Origin: Piscirickettsiaceae bacterium
GTDB lineage: Bacteria > Pseudomonadota > Gammaproteobacteria > Nitrosococcales > Methylophagaceae
NCBI GenBank assembly: GCA_024685975.1
Contig: JAIBDZ010000003.1
Coordinates: 1-64,000 of the forward strand
DNA: 64,000 bases
Direction: 5' to 3'
In this document: in pieces, positions 14,933 through 31,386 of the stretch
Numbering within the stretch: the first letter of the stretch is position 1
How the letters are laid out: the number at the start of each line of letters is the position of its first letter
Translations under genes and position numbers: made by a program
The notes under the pieces: model-generated
What the model was told of the DNA's origin: nothing
What the model saw: only the letters and a program-made list of their open reading frames with translations
Database searches by the model: none

Positions 14933-16978
14933 ATGCGTTTGCAACACTTTGTGATGCGTCCGTTGCTTTCTACTATGCTCGTCGCCATATCCTCACAAGC
15001 ATATGCCGATACAGTTGAACTGCCTCGTATCAATATCATTACCGGTTCTGATAATGCTATTCATAAACTACCCGGTTCTGTTGCTGTTATTGATGCAGAA
15101 CAGCTTGAAACCATACAACCTTTATCAACTGAAGATGCTTTAAAACGTATCGCTGGTGTCAATATTAAAGGTGAAGAAGAAACCGGTGTCGTCGCTAATA
15201 TCGGCTTACGCGGTCTCAGCTCTGCTGAACAAAAAACATTGATTTTAGAAGATGGGGTTCCCGTCGCACCCGGTTTATTTATCGGTAATGGTCGTTATTA
15301 CAACCCTCGTATTCAACATATTGAAAGCATCGAAGTGTTAAAAGGGGCATCGTCTTTACGATATGGTCCTTCAACCATTGGTGGTGTCATTAACTATAAA
15401 TCTAAAACACCTGAAGAAGGCGTCCAAGTCAGCGGACGTGTCGGTAGTTTTGGCCTAAAAGAAGGCACAGTCGAAGCCGGTTTCGTTTCAGAAAGTGGTG
15501 ATGCTCAAGCTGGTTTTATCTATACCCACGCTGATGCAGACGGTTTTCAAGATAAAGATTATGATATGGAAGATCTCATGATCAAAGGCGGCATCGAGTT
15601 AGCCAATGGTCAGTGGATTGGTGTTAAATTTAGTCATTATGAAAACGATGCCAATATTTCTTATCGCGGATTATTTTTAGGTGATTATCAATCTGAATCT
15701 GGTTATAACCCGGCTCCTGATGATTATTTCCTAACCGATCGTCAATCAATTGATATCAATCACGAATGGGATATTAATGACGACGCGCTACTTAAAACCG
15801 TTGTTTATTGGAGTGAAGTAACACGTGATTACTGGCGTTATGATGTTGACACACCTGCCTCAGAAGCCGCTGGACGCTGGGTTTACGCAGATACCTTAAC
15901 GGGTAATAACCGTAGTTTTGAACGTATTGGTATTGATACGCGTTTAACCTTGCAAAATACCCTTTTTGACATCGACGGTGAAGCCGAAATTGGCGTTCGA
16001 TATTTTGTCGAAGAATCAGATGATAAACGCATTCGGGCAACAAGAGAACAAGACCGTACTGGTGTCAATGATCGTCACCGTGAAGACAGCGCTAAAAGTC
16101 TTGCTGTATTTGCACAAAACCGGTTTGACATCACAGATCGCTTCAGCATCACACCAGGTTTACGCCTAGAGACTTATGAGCAAAAACGAAAAGTACTGAC
16201 AGATAATAATGCCAGCGAAACCAGTGATAACACTGAACTGCTTCCAGGTTTAGGCGCAACATACTTTATTAATGACGATACGCAATTATTTGCCAGTGCC
16301 TATAAGGCTTTCTCACCAGCAGAAAATGCGGCGGCATTAGATGGTTTAGTTGATCAAAAACTAGAAGCCGAGCGTTCTGTTAATCTCGAAGTGGGTGTGA
16401 GGGGTAAAGTTGATCGTTGGAACTATGAACTAGCCGCTTTCCAAATGGATTTCGAAAACCAAATCGTTGATGGCAACTCAGATCCAAACCTGTCTCAACA
16501 AAATGGTGGCGAAACAATGCATCGTGGGATCGAAATGGTCTTAGGATATGACTTTGGGTCAGGTTTTTCTGTTGACTCTAACTTAACTTATATTCCTACC
16601 TCAGAATTCACACAAGGTGAATTTGACGGCAATCGCATCAGTTACTCTCCTGAAGTCTTAGCTAACTTACAGCTCAACTATCACAACGGCCCATTAAAAA
16701 CGGCTGTGGCAATGCATTACACAGGTAGTCAATTTGGCAGTAGCGATAACAAACGCGACATCAGTGGTACTGGTGGTGGCGTAGGCGGTATTTGGGGCGG
16801 TAAATTACACTCATATACTGTTGTAGACTTATTTGCCAGTTACGATGTGAGCCAACAGTTTACCGTTTTCGGTTCTGTTAAGAACTTAATGGATAAACAC
16901 TATATTGCAGGTCTACGCCAAGGTATCTATGCAGGTCCTGAACGTAGTGTCGAAGTCGGCGCAAAATATAAGTTTTAA
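14933..16978 (+). CDS. TonB-dependent outer-membrane receptor, FecA-like
   Basis: This 681-residue outer-membrane transporter has a signal peptide (residues 1-25, cleavage after SSQAYA). A plug domain follows (about 40-160; LPGSVAVIDAEQLETIQPLSTEDALKRIAGV, then IESIEVLKGASSLRYGPSTIGGVINYKS), then a 22-strand-type barrel ending in the terminal phenylalanine of EVGAKYKF. The plug and early barrel resemble FecA-type ferric citrate/siderophore receptors, but there is no N-terminal signalling extension and no fecIR genes nearby. The substrate is therefore unknown, with ferric chelates most likely. The start is fixed by AAAAGGAG, and it is followed by a strong terminator. Confidence 0.93.
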   Translation: MRLQHFVMRPLLSTMLVAISSQAYADTVELPRINIITGSDNAIHKLPGSVAVIDAEQLETIQPLSTEDALKRIAGVNIKGEEETGVVANIGLRGLSSAEQKTLILEDGVPVAPGLFIGNGRYYNPRIQHIESIEVLKGASSLRYGPSTIGGVINYKSKTPEEGVQVSGRVGSFGLKEGTVEAGFVSESGDAQAGFIYTHADADGFQDKDYDMEDLMIKGGIELANGQWIGVKFSHYENDANISYRGLFLGDYQSESGYNPAPDDYFLTDRQSIDINHEWDINDDALLKTVVYWSEVTRDYWRYDVDTPASEAAGRWVYADTLTGNNRSFERIGIDTRLTLQNTLFDIDGEAEIGVRYFVEESDDKRIRATREQDRTGVNDRHREDSAKSLAVFAQNRFDITDRFSITPGLRLETYEQKRKVLTDNNASETSDNTELLPGLGATYFINDDTQLFASAYKAFSPAENAAALDGLVDQKLEAERSVNLEVGVRGKVDRWNYELAAFQMDFENQIVDGNSDPNLSQQNGGETMHRGIEMVLGYDFGSGFSVDSNLTYIPTSEFTQGEFDGNRISYSPEVLANLQLNYHNGPLKTAVAMHYTGSQFGSSDNKRDISGTGGGVGGIWGGKLHSYTVVDLFASYDVSQQFTVFGSVKNLMDKHYIAGLRQGIYAGPERSVEVGAKYKF

Positions 16979-21798: not shown

Positions 21799-22497
21799 AT
21801 GTCTGACACTAAGATTATTGTCGCGCTTGATTACCCAACACAAGATGCGGCCATTGCGATGGCAAAACAACTCGATCCTCAGCGCTGCAAACTCAAAGTC
21901 GGCAAAGAATTATTTACCCGTTCAGGCCCGCAAATAGTTGAACAATTACAGTCTAATGGTTTTGATATTTTCTTAGATTTAAAATATCACGATATTCCCA
22001 CTACCGTTGCTAAAGCTTGCCGCGCGGCAGCGGAACTCGGTGTTTGGATGATGAATGTCCATACTCTGGGTGGTGAAGCGATGATGTCGCAAGCAAAAGA
22101 AGCCATCCTACAAGCGCAATCAAAAAGCTTATTAATTGGTGTCACACTTTTGACGAGTATGGATCAAGCCACGTTTCAACAAATCGGTTTAACCGGCAGC
22201 ATCAGTGACACGGTGTTACGGTTAGCCAAACTAGCAGAACAAAGTGGCTTAGATGGCGTCGTGTGTTCTGCACAAGAAGCAACGTTATTACGTGCTCAAC
22301 ATGCTGATGATTTTCAGCTCGTCACACCCGGTATTCGCCCTGCTAATAGCGATACTGGCGATCAACATCGCACAATGACACCTGCTCAAGCATTGGCTGC
22401 AGGTAGCAGTTATCTCGTTATCGGTCGTCCTATCACTGCAGCGACCGATCCTATGCAAGCCTTAACGGATATTGAGGCAAGCCTTATTAAACTTTAA
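21799..22497 (+). CDS. pyrF: Orotidine 5'-phosphate decarboxylase
   Basis: This enzyme catalyses the last step of UMP synthesis. The catalytic motif [14 protein letters not shown] contains the Asp-Lys-Asp array. The N-terminal IVALDYPT and C-terminal [18 protein letters not shown] and [14 protein letters not shown] phosphate-binding segments are all present. Length (232 aa) is normal. It is transcribed alone on the plus strand, divergent from tgt, and its 3' end overlaps the convergent chemoreceptor gene by 11 bp. Confidence 0.98.
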
Positions 22498-23680
22498 ATT
22501 TGGCAACGGCTTGTTGTAATTGTTCAGACAATAAAGACATTGTTTCAACCGCTTTAGAAGATTGTTGAGCCCCTTCTGCAGTATGCTCTGCAACTTGGCT
22601 GATATTTACAATACCGCGGTTAATATCTTCCGCGACGGTTGATTGTTCGCTGGCTGCCCCTGAAATAGCGGCACTCATTTCATCCATTTTAGAAATCATA
22701 CTGGTAATCGTATCAAGTGCTTGATTGGCCTGTGCCGCTTTTTCAACACTGGTTTTCGCACTTTCACGACCTTCATTCATCACTTTCACTGCAGCGACAG
22801 CTCCGGTTTGTAATCGGCCGACCATTTCTTCAATTTCATGCGTCGATGCTTGTGTTCTCGCCGCCAGCGTTCTGACTTCATCAGCTACAACAGCAAAACC
22901 ACGACCATGTTCACCGGCTCGAGCGGCTTCAATCGCCGCATTCAACGCTAATAAGTTAGTTTGTTCTGTAATCGCACGAATTACGTCGACAATAGCGCCG
23001 ATATTGGCGATATCAGTTTCCAAACTGTTTAAGGTTTCTGCTGCTTTTTCTACTTCAATCGCTAAACGGTCAATCGATGTCATTGTTTCTGTAACGACTT
23101 CTTTACCCGCTTTGGCTTCTGTATCAGCATTATGGGCGGCTTCTGCTGTATTTTGTGCCGTTCTGGCCACTTCTTGTACCGATGCCGCCATTTCATTCAT
23201 TGCTGTTGCGACTTGATTGGTTTCATCTTGTTGCGTTAATACACCATCAACAGTTTCACGGCTAATGATAGCCATTTCTTTTGATGCTTGTTCCAATTGA
23301 GAGACACCACCAATTAAGGTATGCACTAAAGTGGCAACATTTTTTCTGGCGTCATTTAATTCAAAAGCCATCCAGCTAAAATCACTTTTACCAGCGATGG
23401 AGATCTTTTTACTTAAATCGCCCTTTCTGATGTTTTGAATACCATCAACCAATAAATTAGCTCGCTTTGCACCGAAATTACCAATGAAAGTCGCACTCAT
23501 AAATAAGATTAATCCTATTCCTGCGGTTACGCCAATCCCAATAAGACCGCGTTCACTGTTACTCATTTCTAGCGTACCCAGCACCCAAAATAATGCTGTC
23601 AACAATAACAGTCCGACTATGCCCAACACGGCCATTAACTGCATTCGTTTTTTTAGCGAGTAGTTTTCTAACTTAAACAT
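22487..23680 (-). CDS. Methyl-accepting chemotaxis protein without a periplasmic sensor domain
   Basis: Two membrane helices (about 15-36 and 45-67 from the chosen ATG) are separated by only about eight residues (EMSNSERG), so there is no room for a ligand-binding domain. A HAMP-like segment follows. Then comes the cytoplasmic signalling hairpin, with the conserved tip [36 protein letters not shown] 23680 is preferred over a GTG four codons upstream because GGGGACAGAG lies directly before it. It lies 30 bp after fliK and is probably co-transcribed with it. It may sense membrane state, energy or an intracellular partner; this is inference. Confidence 0.92.
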
Positions 23681-23710
23681 CTCTGTCCCCACATGCCTAA
23701 CAATATCCCT

Positions 23711-25450: not shown

Positions 25451-28075
25451 TTATGATTCCTCTTGTTCAATCTGAAAAGAATCGATTAATTGTGCCAAAC
25501 TCTGCCCTTTTTCATTCAATAATTGACTCGTTGAGGCCGCCTTTTCCACCAATTCAGCATTGTGTTGCGTCATTTCATTCACTTTTATCATGGCATCATT
25601 CACTTGAGTCAGGCCTTGCGCTTGCTCGCTACCGGCAGAAGCCATTTTCGACACAATATCTCCAACTCTCTGGGCACCCAAGACAATCTCCTCTATCACT
25701 TGGCCGGAGGCATTCACGGAATGCATGCCTTCTTTGGCTTGGCTGACGCTATCACCCATCAATAATTTCATGTCTTTTATGGTTGAAGAAGCACGTTGTG
25801 CAAGCTGCCTTACTTCAGCTGCAATGATCGCAAACCCACGGCCTTTTTCGCCGGCTTTTGCCGCTTCTACCGAGGCATTAAGTGCCAATAGGTTAGTTTG
25901 AAAAGCAATATCGTCAACTACATTAATGATCTGTGCGATCTGTTGATTAACCTGACTCACCGCCAGCATCGCTCCATTCGCTTGTTCCATGGCTGCAGCG
26001 CCTTTTTCTGCTTGCTCTCGTGCCTGATTGGCGAGCAAGCTTGCTTGCTGAGCATTATCGCCATTTTGTCTGACCGCCGTCGTCATCATATCTATGCTTC
26101 GTGCGACTTCAGATAAAGCGTGCGATTGCTGTTCTGTGCGCGACCCTAAATCTGTTGTTTCTTTAGCTATATCTGTTGCTGAAGTACTAATACATTTTGA
26201 AGCCTGCCCAATTTCTTTGGCAATTTCGGCTATTTTTCCAACCGTGTCATTGACGGCATTTTGTAATAAGGCAAAGTGTCCTTCATATTCACCAGCAATC
26301 GTTTTTGTTAAATCGCCTTCAGACATCGCCATCATCACTGATGATGTTTCATCTAGAAGATTTTCTACCTCTTGTTGTAAGACTTTTTGATCGGTAATGT
26401 CCGTTGCATACCTGACGACTTTGACCGGCTTACCATTCAAGTCGAATATCGGGTTATAAGATGCTTGTAACCATGCTTCTTGGCCTTCCCCTCGAAGCCG
26501 TTTAAATTGCCCTTGTTCGTGATGGCCTTGACGCAAATTATTCCAGAAAGTTTGGTATTCGTGGCTTGCAGCATACTCAGGCTCAACAAACATACTATGA
26601 TGTCGCCCGATGACATCTTCTTTTTGATATCCCACCACGTCTAAAAAGTTTTGATTGGCCGATAAGATATTACCGTCCATATCGTAACTTATTACGCTCA
26701 TGACTTTATCAATGGCGTTAAGCTGTTCTTCAATATCGGCGTTGCGTATTTTACTCTCTGTGATATCGGTGACATATATCATGATATTAACCGGTTCACC
26801 CTCATTATCGAGCACCGGGGTATAAGCACCTTGCCACCAGATCTCTTCACCATTTTGTTTAATACGTTTGAACTCTCCTGACTCAGCATGACCTTGATGA
26901 AGGTCGCGCCAAAATGCCGTTTCTAATTCTGATTGTTGTAATGTTTTAGGTAATAATTGTTGGTGGGATTGGCCTAGTAACGTTTCTCGCTCATACCCCA
27001 TCATTTGTAGAAAGTTATCATTTGCTTCAACAATGATGCCATTTAGGTCTAATGTGGCCACATTCATGACATTATTTAAAGCCGCACATTGCGCGTCATA
27101 CATATCATCACGGTATTTTGTTGCCGTAATATTGGTCCACTCTAAAACATTGCCAATATAATGACCTGCACCATCTAATAATGCGGTGACATTTAATTGC
27201 AGACTCAAACCATCAATATCAATATCAAAACGGTGTGGCAAATTAGTCAAAGAGGACAAAAACTGCCTTAACGTCTCAGGATTTGGGTGGAAAGCACAAA
27301 TATTACTGCCCACAAGGTGGGAGATAGATAATGTTGGGTAACGGTCCATCAAGGCACTTTCGTGTGTCGTTAGTAACTCTTCCGTCGCTACATTGACATA
27401 ATTAATGATTAACTCTCGATCAATAATCATGATCGGTGTTCTCACATTATTCATCGCCGCTTTAAATTGGGCTAATTCAGCTTCAGCATCGACATGATGT
27501 GCTTGTGCTTCAGAACCTTTTTGTTGTGGCAATTCCTCTATTTCAGAACACGATGCCGCTTTCATAATTGTTATTACACGATTAAGCGTATTCGACCACG
27601 CTTCATTCACTTCCTGTGTCCACGCGTCTCCTGATAGCTCAGCCATGACGGCTAATAAGTTATTCACTATCGCGGTGTAATATTCAGCTTTGACACCGTA
27701 ATGCTGATGACGTGCACCAAGACCACGCAAATAGTCTTCTAGCACTTCTGGCTGGCGAAGACTTTGTACAATCAAGACCAATGAGGCAAAAAACTTCTTT
27801 TGTTGCCCCCCCATTGGTACACCGTTAAAGACGGGAATTAGCTCTTTGTGTTGGCTCAATAATCGTTCATAAAAATGAGCAACCAATTGTTCTCCGTGCT
27901 CTGTTAGAGCAGCAAAACTCTCTTCTACCAGTTCGACTTCTGTTTTGGCATTCATTTTTGAAGGTGGTGTATTGTAACGCGCTCTCGTTCGCCGCCGAGA
28001 TGAGGCTGTGTCCTGTGAGGCCTGAGTATTGGAGGAGGCGTTATGCTTATCGTCTGGCATGATTTTTTCGGCCAT
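25451..28075 (-). CDS. Soluble globin-PAS-PAS-PAS methyl-accepting chemotaxis protein
   Basis: This 874-residue protein has no membrane helix. After a basic, disordered N-terminus, residues about 45-175 form a globin resembling the Vgb/Hmp type, with a B10 Tyr69 (HFYERLL) and proximal His123 (GARHQHYGV). Three PAS-like units follow at about 200-320, 330-445 and 450-570, the last two with PAC-type ends (YVTDITESK, YATDITDQK). The rest is a standard MCP signalling hairpin with tip NLLALNASVEAAKAGEKGRGFAIIAAEV. No C-terminal CheR-tethering pentapeptide is present. It overlaps the parA stop by one base (TAATG). A haem-based O2 or NO sensor feeding the local CheW/CheA-like proteins is the natural inference. 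Confidence 0.9.
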   Translation of the reverse strand: MAEKIMPDDKHNASSNTQASQDTASSRRRTRARYNTPPSKMNAKTEVELVEESFAALTEHGEQLVAHFYERLLSQHKELIPVFNGVPMGGQQKKFFASLVLIVQSLRQPEVLEDYLRGLGARHQHYGVKAEYYTAIVNNLLAVMAELSGDAWTQEVNEAWSNTLNRVITIMKAASCSEIEELPQQKGSEAQAHHVDAEAELAQFKAAMNNVRTPIMIIDRELIINYVNVATEELLTTHESALMDRYPTLSISHLVGSNICAFHPNPETLRQFLSSLTNLPHRFDIDIDGLSLQLNVTALLDGAGHYIGNVLEWTNITATKYRDDMYDAQCAALNNVMNVATLDLNGIIVEANDNFLQMMGYERETLLGQSHQQLLPKTLQQSELETAFWRDLHQGHAESGEFKRIKQNGEEIWWQGAYTPVLDNEGEPVNIMIYVTDITESKIRNADIEEQLNAIDKVMSVISYDMDGNILSANQNFLDVVGYQKEDVIGRHHSMFVEPEYAASHEYQTFWNNLRQGHHEQGQFKRLRGEGQEAWLQASYNPIFDLNGKPVKVVRYATDITDQKVLQQEVENLLDETSSVMMAMSEGDLTKTIAGEYEGHFALLQNAVNDTVGKIAEIAKEIGQASKCISTSATDIAKETTDLGSRTEQQSHALSEVARSIDMMTTAVRQNGDNAQQASLLANQAREQAEKGAAAMEQANGAMLAVSQVNQQIAQIINVVDDIAFQTNLLALNASVEAAKAGEKGRGFAIIAAEVRQLAQRASSTIKDMKLLMGDSVSQAKEGMHSVNASGQVIEEIVLGAQRVGDIVSKMASAGSEQAQGLTQVNDAMIKVNEMTQHNAELVEKAASTSQLLNEKGQSLAQLIDSFQIEQEES

Positions 28076-28815
28076 TAATGCACCCTCCCCTCTAGCAAGT
28101 CTTCTGCTAATGAATAAAAGTCTTTTGCTCCTTGCCCTGTTTGTTGGTAATCAAAAACCGCTTTTTGCTGTTCTTGACTTCGCATAATCGCGCTATTGTA
28201 ATGCACTGTCGTGGCCAATACCCGTTTTGGAAATGCCGCTTTTATAGCTGTCATAATAGCTTTTGATAATACTGACGTCGAATCATATTGTGTCATCGTC
28301 AACCATAACTTAGCACCACCTGATAATCGCTTTAATTGTTTAAATAATTGAATCGACTTCACCATTCCCTCTGCAGACAAATAACTTGTCGTTGTAGGAA
28401 TAATCACTTCGTCAGCAGCCAATAACGCGCTCAACATAGGCAAGCCTGGTTCGGTTGGACAGTCAATTAAAATAAAATCCTGCTCTGCCATGGTATCAAT
28501 CATATGTTTTAATTTATACCCTTGTTTTAATGCCATTTTTTCTGTTTTTTCACCTAATCGTGAGTCAGCAGGAATCAAATTAAAACCTGCAGCCAGTGAA
28601 TGAGTTACCTGTGATAAGGCTTTAGCATCTTGTAAGACCTGAGTAATACCTTGTTCCGGCGCAACATTACAGGATCGTGTCAGCTGAGCCGAAGGGTCCA
28701 TATCAATGAGAGTAACCTGTTGGTGCATTAAGGCTAAAGCATACCCAAGGTTATACGTCATCACTGTTTTACCGACTTGTGCTTGTTGGTTCATAATTGC
28801 AATTACTCTTGCCAC
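28075..28815 (-). CDS. ParA/MinD-like ATPase with altered deviant Walker A motif
   Basis: This 246-residue protein has the ParA fold: N-terminal VIAIMNQQAQVGKTVMTYNL, Walker A' LIDMDPSAQL, Walker B-like FILIDCPTEPG, and C-terminal helices. The usual KGGVGKTT is replaced by QAQVGKTV: the signature lysine is Gln11 and both glycines are changed, although the P-loop Gly15-Lys16-Thr17 remains. The start is GTG with GGGCGATAA upstream. ParA-like proteins (ParC) place chemosensory arrays at the flagellated pole in other gammaproteobacteria. The substitution suggests altered dimerisation or loss of ATP hydrolysis; this is inference. Confidence 0.88.
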   Translation of the reverse strand: MARVIAIMNQQAQVGKTVMTYNLGYALALMHQQVTLIDMDPSAQLTRSCNVAPEQGITQVLQDAKALSQVTHSLAAGFNLIPADSRLGEKTEKMALKQGYKLKHMIDTMAEQDFILIDCPTEPGLPMLSALLAADEVIIPTTTSYLSAEGMVKSIQLFKQLKRLSGGAKLWLTMTQYDSTSVLSKAIMTAIKAAFPKRVLATTVHYNSAIMRSQEQQKAVFDYQQTGQGAKDFYSLAEDLLEGRVH

Positions 28816-28835
28816 TGTTTATCGCCCAAGACCAT

Positions 28836-29312
28836 TCAAGCTAATGCCTGATGATTCAGCAAAAAATGAAGATCAAGGATTCTCACCATGGAATTTTGTT
28901 TTGAGAATAAGCCGGTCACTGCTTTAGCTGCCCTGTTGTCACCTAAATTTGGAGCTGGTTTAATCACCGAGTTCATGACTTCCTCACTCTCTAAAATAGT
29001 ATCAACCACCAACCCAGCATGGCGTTGAGAATGTTGTTCATCAAAGCTTGTCACGATAATAATAATGGTCGAATCAGAATATGAGGTATCCACACAGCCA
29101 AACCAGGTTCTCAAGTCGATCACCGGTACAATATCGCCATGTAAATTCATCACACCACACAAGTAAGATGGCGTATGGGGTACAGGAGTCACGCCAGACC
29201 AACGCTGGAAATCATTGATTTGCAGCATATCCATCGCAAAAACCTCATTCCCAACCTGAAAAGTTAAGTAATGAATTTTATTGGCCGACGCCTTGTGAGA
29301 TAAATCCGTCAA
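28836..29312 (-). CDS. CheW-like adaptor protein
   Basis: This 158-residue single CheW domain couples receptors to CheA. Seen features are the N-terminal strand HYLTFQVGNEVFAMDMLQI, the TPSYLCGVMNLHGDIVPVIDLRTWFG core with the conserved Arg, and HAGLVVDTILESEEV. It begins with a TTG that overlaps the stop of the CheA-like gene (TTGA). No other start fits the domain boundary, and AAAGGATGG lies upstream. Being translationally coupled to the CheA-like gene, it probably forms a complex with it. Confidence 0.9.
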   Translation of the reverse strand: MTDLSHKASANKIHYLTFQVGNEVFAMDMLQINDFQRWSGVTPVPHTPSYLCGVMNLHGDIVPVIDLRTWFGCVDTSYSDSTIIIIVTSFDEQHSQRHAGLVVDTILESEEVMNSVIKPAPNLGDNRAAKAVTGLFSKQNSMVRILDLHFLLNHQALA

Positions 29313-31060
29313 GACACGCCATCCTTTGACTGAGCTTGCCGATATAATGCCGTCACACCAGCAAGGTCTAAGGCTAAGATAACGTGTCCATCGTCTAAAA
29401 CTGTTGCCCCTGCAATGCCCGTCACTGTCTGATAATGCGTCTCAAGCGGTTTCACCATGACTTGTTGTTGTTTAATCACATCTGTCACCAGCATGGCAAT
29501 GCGTTCATGTTGAACCTCAACTACGAGTACGACATCCGCATCAGCTCTGTCGCTATCATGGAGCAATTGATTGAGCCTTATAAGTGGTAAATACTGCCCT
29601 TCATATTGATATACCTCTCCTAATTGCGCGATAGTTTCACACTGCCCTTGATCATAGGTCATCGCTTCCACAATATCCGCTGCAGGCAACACATATTGAT
29701 AACCCGCGATATCAACAAACTGGCCATCAATGAAGGAATCCACATTCGGCAGTGTTATCACAAACGATGACCCTTCAGCTTCTTGGGCCTTGACCTGTAT
29801 TGTTCCACCTAATGACATGAGATCAGCTTGAATAATGTGGAAAACACTATCTTCTTGATCCTCTATGGCTAATCCTGCGCCGTCATTCGTTATCTCGATA
29901 TTAAGATGATTTTGTTGATAACTTACTTTTAGCGTGATGGTCGCATTATCTGGTTTACCCGCGAGCCGACGCTGATCGATAGTCTCAATCTGCTCTGTCA
30001 GCATATACCGCGTAAGTTTAGTGATAACCGGCGTCAACATATTTAATTGTGCTGCATCCAGCTGTACATCGGCCCCTAATAGCAGGCCATCAATAGGGGA
30101 CTTGACCTCTTGTTTTACCCTATCAATTTCATCCATCATGACACGAAATAATTGACGAGTTGAGGCTACGCGCATGCGCCCTAACATCATCTGCATCGCT
30201 TGAATGATGTCACGACATTGTTGTAAACCATCATCTAAGCGAGCGGAAGGACTTAAGTGCTTTTGATCTATGTAAAATGTCGTATGAACGGCCATCAGGT
30301 CTGTCAGTAGACCTTGTATAGCGGCTACATTGTCAGCATCTGTTTCTACCTCATCATCTCGATGATGTATCACCTCAAGTGGCTGAGATGACAATGCGGT
30401 GATTTGATAATGACCATGATCTCTAAGCGGCGATAATATCTCTATCAATTCACCCCGTGAGATAGTGCCCGTCAGATGCAATGTCCAAGATAGATAACAT
30501 GACGCAGGATCATAATCGAAAAACGGTGGTAATGATGTCAGATCTACGTCAACACGCAGTTCACCCAAGGATGATAATTGCTGAAAAAGCTCAATTAATG
30601 GCTCACCTTGTTGCAATAACGTGGCTTCTGGTGCGATTTCTATCTGCCATATTTTATCTACAGTAGGATTCTCAAACCATAGACATGGCCGCAAAGCAAC
30701 ATCGTGATCAGCCGTCACCATATCATCCATGATGACTTCATCTTCTACAGCTGCGCTGAGAGTCATCATGGTATCTATTGCCGTCAATATGGCTGTTTTC
30801 ACATCATGCTGCACATAATGTGCTTCTGAGATCTCCAACAATAACGCACTCATTGAGCTAGCGAGTTGCTCTAATTCGACTGATGCCACTTCCATCGCGA
30901 TCTGTTTAATCTCCGCCATGACAAGTAATGATGATGACACCATGGCTTCGTCTGGTTTAGATTCATCAATTTGCTGCCATTGTAATGACATCTCAGACAA
31001 CTGATGACGACATGTCGCTAATAACGCGTTGTGGCGTGATGATAAAGTATTAGTCATCAT
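29309..31060 (-). CDS. CheA-like protein, apparent pseudokinase
   Basis: This 583-residue protein is recognisable as CheA by its helical N-terminal P1-like part (about 35-100), the dimerisation/ATPase-like region (about 275-440; GRMRVASTRQLFRVMMDEI, RRLAGKPDNATITLKV, LGGTIQVKAQEAEGSSFVITLP) and a C-terminal CheW-like P5 domain (about 440-570). By eye, the P1 phospho-acceptor His is replaced near Glu50. The N-box HLxRNxxDHG becomes KLTRYMLTEQ (Asn to Tyr352, His to Lys348), and the GRGxG loop of the ATP lid is gone, while NDGAG (392-396) is kept. It is therefore probably a structural or regulatory scaffold. It lies between a STAS gene and cheW. Confidence 0.85.
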   Translation of the reverse strand: MMTNTLSSRHNALLATCRHQLSEMSLQWQQIDESKPDEAMVSSSLLVMAEIKQIAMEVASVELEQLASSMSALLLEISEAHYVQHDVKTAILTAIDTMMTLSAAVEDEVIMDDMVTADHDVALRPCLWFENPTVDKIWQIEIAPEATLLQQGEPLIELFQQLSSLGELRVDVDLTSLPPFFDYDPASCYLSWTLHLTGTISRGELIEILSPLRDHGHYQITALSSQPLEVIHHRDDEVETDADNVAAIQGLLTDLMAVHTTFYIDQKHLSPSARLDDGLQQCRDIIQAMQMMLGRMRVASTRQLFRVMMDEIDRVKQEVKSPIDGLLLGADVQLDAAQLNMLTPVITKLTRYMLTEQIETIDQRRLAGKPDNATITLKVSYQQNHLNIEITNDGAGLAIEDQEDSVFHIIQADLMSLGGTIQVKAQEAEGSSFVITLPNVDSFIDGQFVDIAGYQYVLPAADIVEAMTYDQGQCETIAQLGEVYQYEGQYLPLIRLNQLLHDSDRADADVVLVVEVQHERIAMLVTDVIKQQQVMVKPLETHYQTVTGIAGATVLDDGHVILALDLAGVTALYRQAQSKDGVS

Positions 31061-31071
31061 AGCAGTGACAC

Positions 31072-31386
31072 TTAAGCTTCACTTGGACCATGATGCGAGG
31101 TATTCAACCCCATCGCATCAGCTAAGCCTAGTAACCTAGCTGTATTAACTAACGCTGCGCTGGGTTTACGCCATTGAATTTGTTGCTGGTAAACCGATTG
31201 TGTTGACATAAAAGCACAGCACAACTGCATGGCGGCGGCGTCAACTTGCTCTATTTTTTCACCGTCAAATATCACCGATTTACCTTCTAATAATGCGATC
31301 AATAATTTAGGGTATAAAGCACGTGCTTCCGCAAGAGTAAATGTTTTTCCACACACCATTGTTTCAATCGCTATTTGCTCTGTCAT
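31072..31386 (-). CDS. STAS-domain protein at the head of the chemosensory-like operon
   Basis: This 104-residue protein is a single STAS domain. The segment EGKSVIFDGEKIEQVDAAAMQLCCAFM aligns with the switch loop and helix of anti-sigma-factor antagonists. The phosphorylatable Ser after the Asp is replaced by Ala (Asp49-Ala50-Ala51), as also seen in STAS proteins encoded next to some cheA genes. In pseudomonads a STAS gene also lies between fliJ and fliK, alongside a PP2C response regulator and an HPt gene. It is 11 bp upstream of the CheA-like gene. Confidence 0.85.
   Translation of the reverse strand: MTEQIAIETMVCGKTFTLAEARALYPKLLIALLEGKSVIFDGEKIEQVDAAAMQLCCAFMSTQSVYQQQIQWRKPSAALVNTARLLGLADAMGLNTSHHGPSEA

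Follow-up and report, generated by a model that had tools for sequence, protein, structure and literature searches.

The window considered here is a stretch of 64,000 nucleotides from a Piscirickettsiaceae bacterium of the family Methylophagaceae (contig JAIBDZ010000003.1, positions 1 to 64,000), and our subject is a cassette of five chemosensory-like genes that occupies its minus strand between fliJ and fliK. We propose, with modest confidence, that these genes form a functional cytoplasmic chemosensory scaffold that works without a kinase and is derived from a complete che operon with ParA. The sequences argue for descent from such an operon, for loss of the kinase motifs, for five unbroken frames under constraint, for a shift of constraint within the CheA-like protein towards its P2 and P5 domains, and for a separate emergence of this gene set in another lineage. 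Transcription runs from a STAS_2 protein of 104 residues (31072..31386; Pfam STAS_2 37.8 bits, above cut-off) through a CheA-like protein of 583 residues (29309..31060), a CheW coupling protein of 158 residues with a TTG start (28836..29312; Pfam CheW 110 bits) and a ParA/PpfA-like ATPase of 246 residues with a GTG start (28075..28815; Pfam AAA_31 94 bits, AAA_31/CbiA) to a soluble receptor of 874 residues (25451..28075) in which Pfam recognises globin, PAS, HAMP_2 and MCPsignal domains. All five frames are intact; a gap of 11 bp separates the STAS and CheA-like genes and one of 20 bp the CheW and ParA-like genes, while the CheA-like and CheW genes overlap by 4 bp and the ParA-like and receptor genes by 1 bp. 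This order, with its coordinates, spacing and place between fliJ and fliK, had been described in an earlier sequence-only reading of the window and holds as described.

The CheA-like protein has the appearance of a pseudo-CheA. Its motif losses, like those of the ParA-like protein, were judged against intact homologues within the family: the H-box, AAHSIKGGA in intact CheAs, reads VMAEIKQIA, so that the phospho-acceptor His of P1 is gone; the N-box, HLVRNSLDHGLE in intact CheAs, reads KLTRYMLTEQIE; and the F-box or lid and the G2 box (GRGVG) have disappeared, the G1 core DGAG being kept (NDGAGL). Alignment therefore bears out the catalytic losses first suggested for this protein (P1 His, N-box and lid), and the cassette proteins showed no other phospho-His, N-box or signature Lys that could stand in for the lost ones. 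Pfam finds the CheW family at P5 (69.2 bits) and a sub-threshold HATPase_c; as controls, both the CheA encoded in the corresponding slot of a relative (genome G030) and the window genome's own main CheA exceed the cut-offs for Hpt, H-kinase_dim, HATPase_c and CheW. From model helices and the H-box column we delimit a P1-like helical bundle without the His (residues 1-127; 30680..31060), followed by a P2-like alpha/beta domain (134-224; 30389..30661), degenerate P3 (240-300) and P4 (301-440) domains in which DGAG is kept and the lid absent (29741..30343), and a CheW-like P5 docking domain (441-575; 29336..29740). An AlphaFold model built from 36 sequences (mean predicted local distance difference test, pLDDT, 76; predicted template modelling score, pTM, 0.38) predicts helical P1, alpha/beta P2-like, low-confidence P3, P4 without a lid, and P5, although the arrangement of these domains is unreliable because of the low pTM. 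The P1-like helices have block pLDDT values of 77-93 across residues 11-110, the best folds returned by Foldseek for the model are CheA chains, and the predicted P5 superposes on 4jpb chain A with a TMt of 0.87 and a root-mean-square deviation of 1.9 over 128 columns. With a receptor tip that is nearly canonical, the docking modules appear preserved, as had been supposed.

The sequence-only reading knew of no described system with this composition; its origin can instead be traced to a full operon in the same slot of relatives. A FliI gene could be located in 45 of the 57 genomes from the family, and in 18 of these relatives an operon of the order STAS-CheY-CheA-CheW-ParA-MCP-CheR-CheD-CheB lies between fliJ and fliK (G004, G006, G008, G014, G017, G020, G021, G023, G026, G030, G034, G036, G041, G046, G047, G049, G051 and G052), a count that takes in slots lying partly on their contig, such as that of G008, which ends before CheB. 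The protein family assignments were verified by Pfam in G030; several further contigs stop inside the slot, and ParA is split into two frames in G014 and G047. In most full operons the signature Lys of ParA and a receptor motif, DPLAWL, are present. A tree of FliG, FliH, FliI and FliJ from 43 genomes places the window genome (G000) in a clade with G010, G011 and G012 (support 99), within which G000, G010 and G012 group together (100) and G000 and G012 form a pair (57). Throughout this window clade (4/4) CheY is absent from the slot and CheA lacks kinase motifs; CheR, CheD and CheB have also gone from the slot. The remnants differ in detail: the CheA-like protein of G012 has no P1 and keeps more of P4 than its clade mates, with G1 and the F-box still present, while G011 has no ParA and its CheA-like protein opens with a STAS sequence, in place of P1, ahead of P2. 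The cassette thus recurs in relatives without broken frames, and by synteny and the tree it is a reduced form of the full slot operon, which would be ancestral. STAS orthologues occupy the same place in relatives, and the base composition of the cassette resembles that of neighbouring genes. The Methylophagaceae full operon has the same slot, gene order and domain types, but possesses the kinase, CheY and adaptation enzymes that the window cassette is without.

Among 14 same-genus species with intact operons (91 pairs), CheA identity is 0.82-0.87 in P1, P3, P4 and P5 and only 0.61 in P2; among the four species of the window clade (6 pairs) it is 0.374 in P2, 0.37 in P5, 0.268 in P4, 0.206 in P3 and 0.19 in P1. 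Read from these alignments, constraint within CheA is inverted in the window clade, the P2-like and P5 domains now being the most conserved and P1, P3 and P4 the least. The frames themselves are unbroken: no stop or frameshift interrupts the roughly 1970 cassette codons, even with third-position differences of 0.55-0.73 between clade species in comparisons of the window's genes. When neutral change of 0.1 per site was simulated on the CheA-like gene, copies acquired 6.8 stops on average and none of 200 remained stop-free, and we reject a pseudogene on these grounds.

A second lineage carries the same gene set. Genome G035 belongs to another genus, and the tree joins it as sister to G030 and G054 (support 95); G030, like G051 and G052, keeps the full operon. 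The G035 slot contains STAS (129 aa), a CheA of 301 residues, CheW, a ParA that is 84-85% identical to that of G030, and a globin receptor of 361 residues whose signalling hairpin is short. Its CheA consists of P2 joined directly to P5, with P1, P3 and P4 absent, and so the domains physically left are those most conserved in the window clade. CheY, CheR, CheD and CheB gave no match in this slot, the gene matches contain no stop, and codon positions change in the order third, first, second in most comparisons, CheW of G035-G054 excepted. The five-gene set appears to have arisen independently in G035, which would place the same five genes in two lineages. Short CheA genes were also sought across the class, in a sample of 369 genomes of which 121 had a match at E<=1e-20. 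Nine of these have a frame of <500 aa at the match: four lie at contig ends (G247, G097, G322, G352); of G082 and G089 (L095, L096), the first is also cut by a contig end and the second has its gene in two frames; and G095 and G368, of other families, have it in three (L181, L184), apparently through true decay. Leaving aside the short frame of G230, no second P2+P5 CheA was seen outside the family in this sample at that threshold.

Several observations weigh against our reading. All five window genes have evolved faster than in intact operons, which partial relaxation would produce likewise. In pairs chosen by hand (four of the six possible clade pairs; on the comparison side, a sixth pair lacks CheA and CheW values), CheA identity is 0.25-0.35 in the clade (FliI 0.78-0.86) against 0.72-0.78 in five intact pairs (FliI 0.80-0.86); the corresponding ranges are 0.29-0.47 against 0.64-0.77 for CheW, 0.47-0.52 against 0.68-0.84 for ParA, 0.40-0.44 against 0.51-0.75 for MCP and 0.36-0.43 against 0.48-0.68 for STAS. 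The pair G005-G016, in which G016 lacks P1, has a CheA identity of 0.79 at FliI 0.88. In favour of constraint, 17 of the 18 gene comparisons within the clade show codon positions changing in the order third, first, second; in the remaining one, STAS of G010-G012, third positions are not the most changed. But alignment of proteins as diverged as these (25-35% identity) by itself lowers second-position change and the codon counts are uncontrolled for this, and for that reason the unbroken frames are the stronger argument. Also in favour, the ratio of distances (P2+P5)/(P3+P4) is 0.71 in the clade (bootstrap 0.61-0.82) and 1.82 in intact operons (1.39-2.53, from the first 40 of the 91 pairs); these pairs share branches and are not independent, making the intervals too narrow as tests, though the ranges lie far apart. 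Other slots have come to different ends. That of G007 kept ParA only (L081 3690-4448, P-loop NQKCGVGKT), that of G048 (L083 11900-15851) holds STAS, a CheY remnant, a Lys-less ParA and a globin MCP with neither CheA nor CheW, and the kinase-impaired G016 and G024 still keep CheY and have not converged on the five-gene set. Finally, for contact between STAS and P2 the evidence is one gene fusion together with co-retention.

Some of these points would be expected if a dispensable sensory operon were simply eroding and the five genes were those not yet gone. The raised rates in all five genes and the remnants in G007 and G048 are in keeping with late decay, as is a kinase state of the slot that changed on no fewer than six separate occasions across the family tree. 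We nevertheless think it unlikely, given frames that stay open despite so much third-position change, constraint in CheA that has shifted and not merely fallen, the same gene set in G035, and overlapping junctions that have been retained; CheA genes that look truly decayed, those of G368 and G095, are broken into three frames.

The graded intermediates in one slot make the order of loss readable. G001 has a slot without CheR, CheD and CheB; G024 combines a CheA with a damaged G2 box with a retained CheY; and G016 likewise keeps CheY beside a CheA that has lost P1 and has a damaged G2. By parsimony on the family tree the kinase state of the slot changed at least six times (40 tips) and CheY became absent at least three times, 6 of 37 scored species being without it. 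Among species scored for both, CheY is missing from none of 27 with an intact kinase and from six of nine without. The states were typed by hand: the partly damaged G016 and G024 were counted as lost, G032 was entered as intact though its CheA lies in two frames, and species on broken contigs were left out. Since G048 and G007 lost the kinase but kept other subsets, the outcome of kinase loss is not fixed.

That P2 persists despite the loss of CheY suggests another partner for this domain, and STAS is the likeliest ligand because P2 outlasts CheY, every reduced set with P2 still has STAS, and G011 carries a fusion of the two. Our proposal for the kinase-free scaffold is as follows. The ancestor would have had, in the fliJ-fliK slot, a complete che operon whose ParA gene adjoined that of a soluble receptor. 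On the line leading to the window clade the kinase would have died and CheY, CheR, CheD and CheB been lost, leaving the globin receptor, CheW, a CheA functionally reduced to P2-like and P5 docking modules, ParA and STAS. Binding of O2 or NO by the globin would change the receptor tip; the tip, CheW and P5 would form a ring-like or small array without a kinase; and P2 would be its exposed output face, binding or releasing STAS as a phosphorylation-independent partner switch. ParA, the Arg-rich receptor tail described below, or both would probably tie the array to the nucleoid. The last two steps are the weakest, and capture of STAS by P2 is our best guess at the output. The complete scheme, phosphorylation-free signalling in which a soluble receptor sensing O2 or NO acts with CheW and a P2+P5 adaptor in a nucleoid-associated complex that switches a STAS effector, with at least two origins in Methylophagaceae, is offered tentatively and is on balance doubtful. 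If true, the array core of receptor, CheW and P5 would be a selectable switch by itself.

The earlier suggestion that the cassette modulates or positions the flagellar machinery has gene position as its sole direct evidence; the place in a flagellar cluster suggests an effect on flagella and does not prove it. An effect on the main array was also proposed, with the cassette as a decoy. The window genome is a 68%-complete draft of 1.62 Mb with nine CheW-family places, and its main che cluster, on contig C8 and separate from the cassette, encodes CheY, CheZ, an intact-looking CheA and CheB by Pfam; one CheR lies at C2:65329, away from the cassette. CheY, CheB and CheR are thus absent from the cassette, as first noted, and have homologues elsewhere in the genome. 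The receptor, CheW and P5 could then join or compete with the main CheA array as an accessory that lets oxygen modulate its kinase, and the main cluster, the CheR elsewhere and the preserved receptor tip and P5 fold would suit such a role. We think this improbable, if conceivable: the full operon of relatives is a self-contained second system, P2, STAS and ParA would be needless for a decoy receptor, and CheW has changed in parallel with P5, as expected of a private pair. Another CheA might also act in trans on a cassette component, and there is a precedent for divided labour in the Rhodobacter sphaeroides cytoplasmic cluster, where CheA3 and CheA4 split the kinase functions, as the cited excerpts describe (PMC10924463, PMC10782961). 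However, the cassette retains no known phospho-acceptor, the P1 His being lost and CheY absent, and P1 is missing entirely from G012 and G035; we regard a kinase in trans as very improbable.

The receptor is, by its predicted domain order, of the globin-coupled chemoreceptor type, with a globin N-terminal to the MCP domain and no membrane helix. The globin (Pfam residues 67-170; 27566..27877) has flavohaemoglobins as its closest solved chains (E 1.9e-13) and keeps a Tyr and a His that we take to be B10 and F8 of those proteins; the signalling domain with the tip spans 25571..26035 (Pfam MCPsignal). No hydrophobic stretch resembling a membrane helix occurs in any of the five cassette proteins, their maximum KD19 values being 1.0-1.4 against 2.6 in a membrane MCP used as control. 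The idea of a haem-type sensor receptor in a structural array without its own kinase, already put forward in the sequence-only reading, finds support in these sequences.

Two further losses had been counted as degeneration, and in each the residue is indeed missing. The residue directly after the conserved Asp of STAS is Thr, Ala or Gly in all 44 aligned family sequences (the window reads DAA), and a Ser at either of the two places after this Asp, presumably the site of the SpoIIAA phospho-Ser, was found in two of the 44 and is lacking in 37 of the 39 from outside the five reduced slots. Ser being so rare family-wide, we reject its loss as a sign of degeneration. In the ParA-like protein, whose closest solved chain is the segregation protein 1wcv (E 5e-23), the P-loop NQKGGVGKT reads NQQAQVGKT (28765..28791), replacing the signature Lys and both Gly, so that the deviant Walker A pattern with its signature Lys (KGGxGK[ST]) is not matched by QAQVGKT; the catalytic GKT, DxDP and DCP are retained and the family profile is matched. 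No compensating Lys or Arg common to the Lys-less ParAs was found in a set that then also included G036, the ParA of which has an N-terminal extension and the P-loop NQKGGVGKT with the signature Lys present. The lost Lys is not accepted as proof of a dead ParA, the inactivity drawn from it earlier: beta-type-1 McdA, which positions carboxysomes, lacks the signature lysine and is in use according to the passages cited (PMC8262871, PMC9178275), and the window protein therefore need not be dead. By analogy it may still bind ATP and have a role, although McdA type 1 keeps two glycines (SGGQGKT) where the window has QAQVGKT, and serves a different cargo (PMC9178275, in part).

What ParA might recognise is suggested by a motif. 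The protein encoded just after parA, whether receptor or STAS, often bears an N-terminal (G/S/N)xDPLA, mostly as DPLAWL; there are 34 such proteins, with the motif starting at residue 8-23. Starting from 102 loci with a CheA frame >500 aa (six duplicates having been removed earlier) and dropping 16 with <=4 kb downstream, we counted it in 26 of 40 ParA-positive and 2 of 46 ParA-negative loci among the remaining 86; the search pattern misses a DPMAW variant in G006, one of the 14 ParA-positive loci scored motif-free. The two ParA-negative cases are the start of a CheD gene in L126 and a 59-codon open stretch in L176. In the former, from Hahella ganghwensis, DPLA stands at residue 6 of the CheD-like protein (16051-16743), in an operon without ParA. 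Within the family, and with DPMAW counted, the motif is present in 24 of 26 species whose ParA has the signature Lys and in none of 11 whose ParA lacks it, but parsimony gives at least two motif changes and at least three Lys changes, and the species counts accordingly overstate independence. G015 and G026 have lost the motif and kept the Lys, suggesting that the motif goes first. The literature search returned no paper on the DPLAW motif, its only matches being cancer papers; DPLA(W) is a concrete candidate for ParA recognition of chemosensory cargo.

In the window receptor DPLAWL is missing and an Arg-rich tail, RRRTRAR, is found at residues 27-33 (27977..27997). The three clade members with ParA (G000, G010 and G012) have retained the tail and have lost both DPLAWL and the signature Lys of ParA; in the fourth, G011, where ParA is gone, the tail is weakened. 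This raises a further possibility, that the tail itself binds DNA and partitioning of the array by ParA has ceased, as in a nucleoid-bound cluster of the type formed by FrzCD of Myxococcus xanthus, a receptor reported in the cited excerpt to bind DNA through a basic N-terminal tail (PMC5716589). Basic N-termini are, however, also typical of the partners that activate ParA ATPases; the cited passages count TlpT, proposed to activate PpfA, among these (PMC7993993). In addition, the ParA proteins of the clade still share 0.47-0.52 identity. We consider this account distinctly unlikely, though it is compatible with a kinase-free scaffold and does not exclude it. The six-species G037 clade has neither tail nor motif yet keeps ParA, which argues against the tail as a strict requirement.

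A close described likeness is to R. sphaeroides CheOp3, which, in the passages cited, also has a soluble receptor gene beside a ParA homologue in a che operon, a basic receptor N-terminus and an unusual CheA (PMC10924463, PMC3964821, PMC7993993). That system (TlpT, PpfA, CheA3/CheA4, CheW4) is described there as signalling through CheA3/CheA4 and CheY6 with CheR3/CheB2 adaptation, none of which the window cassette has; compared by published description only, the window differs further in a ParA without the signature Lys and in its STAS and globin. Of the features of the PpfA/TlpT type, the cassette thus has the pairing of a soluble receptor with a ParA homologue among che genes and lacks CheA-CheY signalling with CheR/CheB adaptation. 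ParA homologues are common in che operons, being reported for 77 of 206 species in the part of the survey cited (PMC2829493). Cluster I (F9) of Vibrio cholerae resembles the proposed array in being purely cytoplasmic; it is seen at low oxygen and forms less often without CheA, but has CheA and a double-ended receptor, DosM, in the account excerpted (PMC7534058). A literature search on the chemosensory class of the window system (F7, F8 or F9) brought up only unrelated papers. The Frz system has a cytoplasmic receptor with a basic N-terminal tail, but its cluster formation requires the FrzE kinase, as far as the cited passage goes (PMC5716589).

To our knowledge neither ParA nor STAS nor a globin belongs to the Frz system. 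There is precedent for cytoplasmic arrays, for ParA in che operons, for split CheAs and for basic receptor tails; what seems new is a naturally kinase-free version of the array with preserved docking modules, in two lineages. Among the papers listed and the passages cited, none describes a naturally kinase-less or pseudokinase chemosensory array, and none of those listed for Methylophaga chemotaxis and globins deals with such a system. In a survey of CheA proteins, the 1.7% in which no Hpt was recognised were explained by assembly errors or by a separate Hpt gene in the operon, in the portion cited (PMC10782961). Here one lineage lost its P1 and P4 motifs and another is without P1, P3 and P4, while receptor, CheW, P2, P5, ParA and STAS persist. 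If the scaffold works, a chemoreceptor array can serve biologically without a kinase, and its structural and signalling roles would be separated in a natural system.

Some observations on the surroundings may be added. A plasmid search with the CheA-like protein gave 183 matching records, none covering 80% of the protein in one place. Upstream of the cassette, fliJ is identified by TIGR02473 (69.6 bits, above cut-off); downstream, the best NCBIfam match of fliK is FliK, below cut-off. The proposal that the slot is a hotspot for flagellar regulators is partly upheld by two metagenome-assembled genomes of Oleiphilaceae (L129, L142), in which a related che operon without ParA and MCP lies between fliJ and fliK. 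In G016 the slot contains, just before fliK (L044 3610-4597), another STAS gene (Pfam STAS, 42 bits) and, after it, one for a HATPase_c_2 protein, possibly a partner-switching pair; several full operons have a protein of about 98 aa at the place of this second STAS. Six species (G037, G038, G056, G043, G042 and G050; L052, L053, L085-L088) share a diverged CheA of 628-630 residues in which the N-box DHG has become AHG and part of P3 is missing, with the ParA P-loop NQTHDVGKT and a receptor of about 450 residues, the MCP domain of which is below cut-off in G037. In G027 (L063, L064) the operon lies on another contig and not after fliJ, its ParA reading NQNEGVGKT, and G048 has a che operon without ParA elsewhere in its genome (L084). 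CheR was not found in the genome of G011, which is 99% complete. Another cluster of the window genome encodes a CheA-like protein of 1905 residues and looks, by inspection, like a pilus system. After fliK, the window encodes a HAMP-MCP with a hydrophobic N-terminus (22487-23692), which is 72-76% identical in six relatives and is retained even where the slot operon is reduced.

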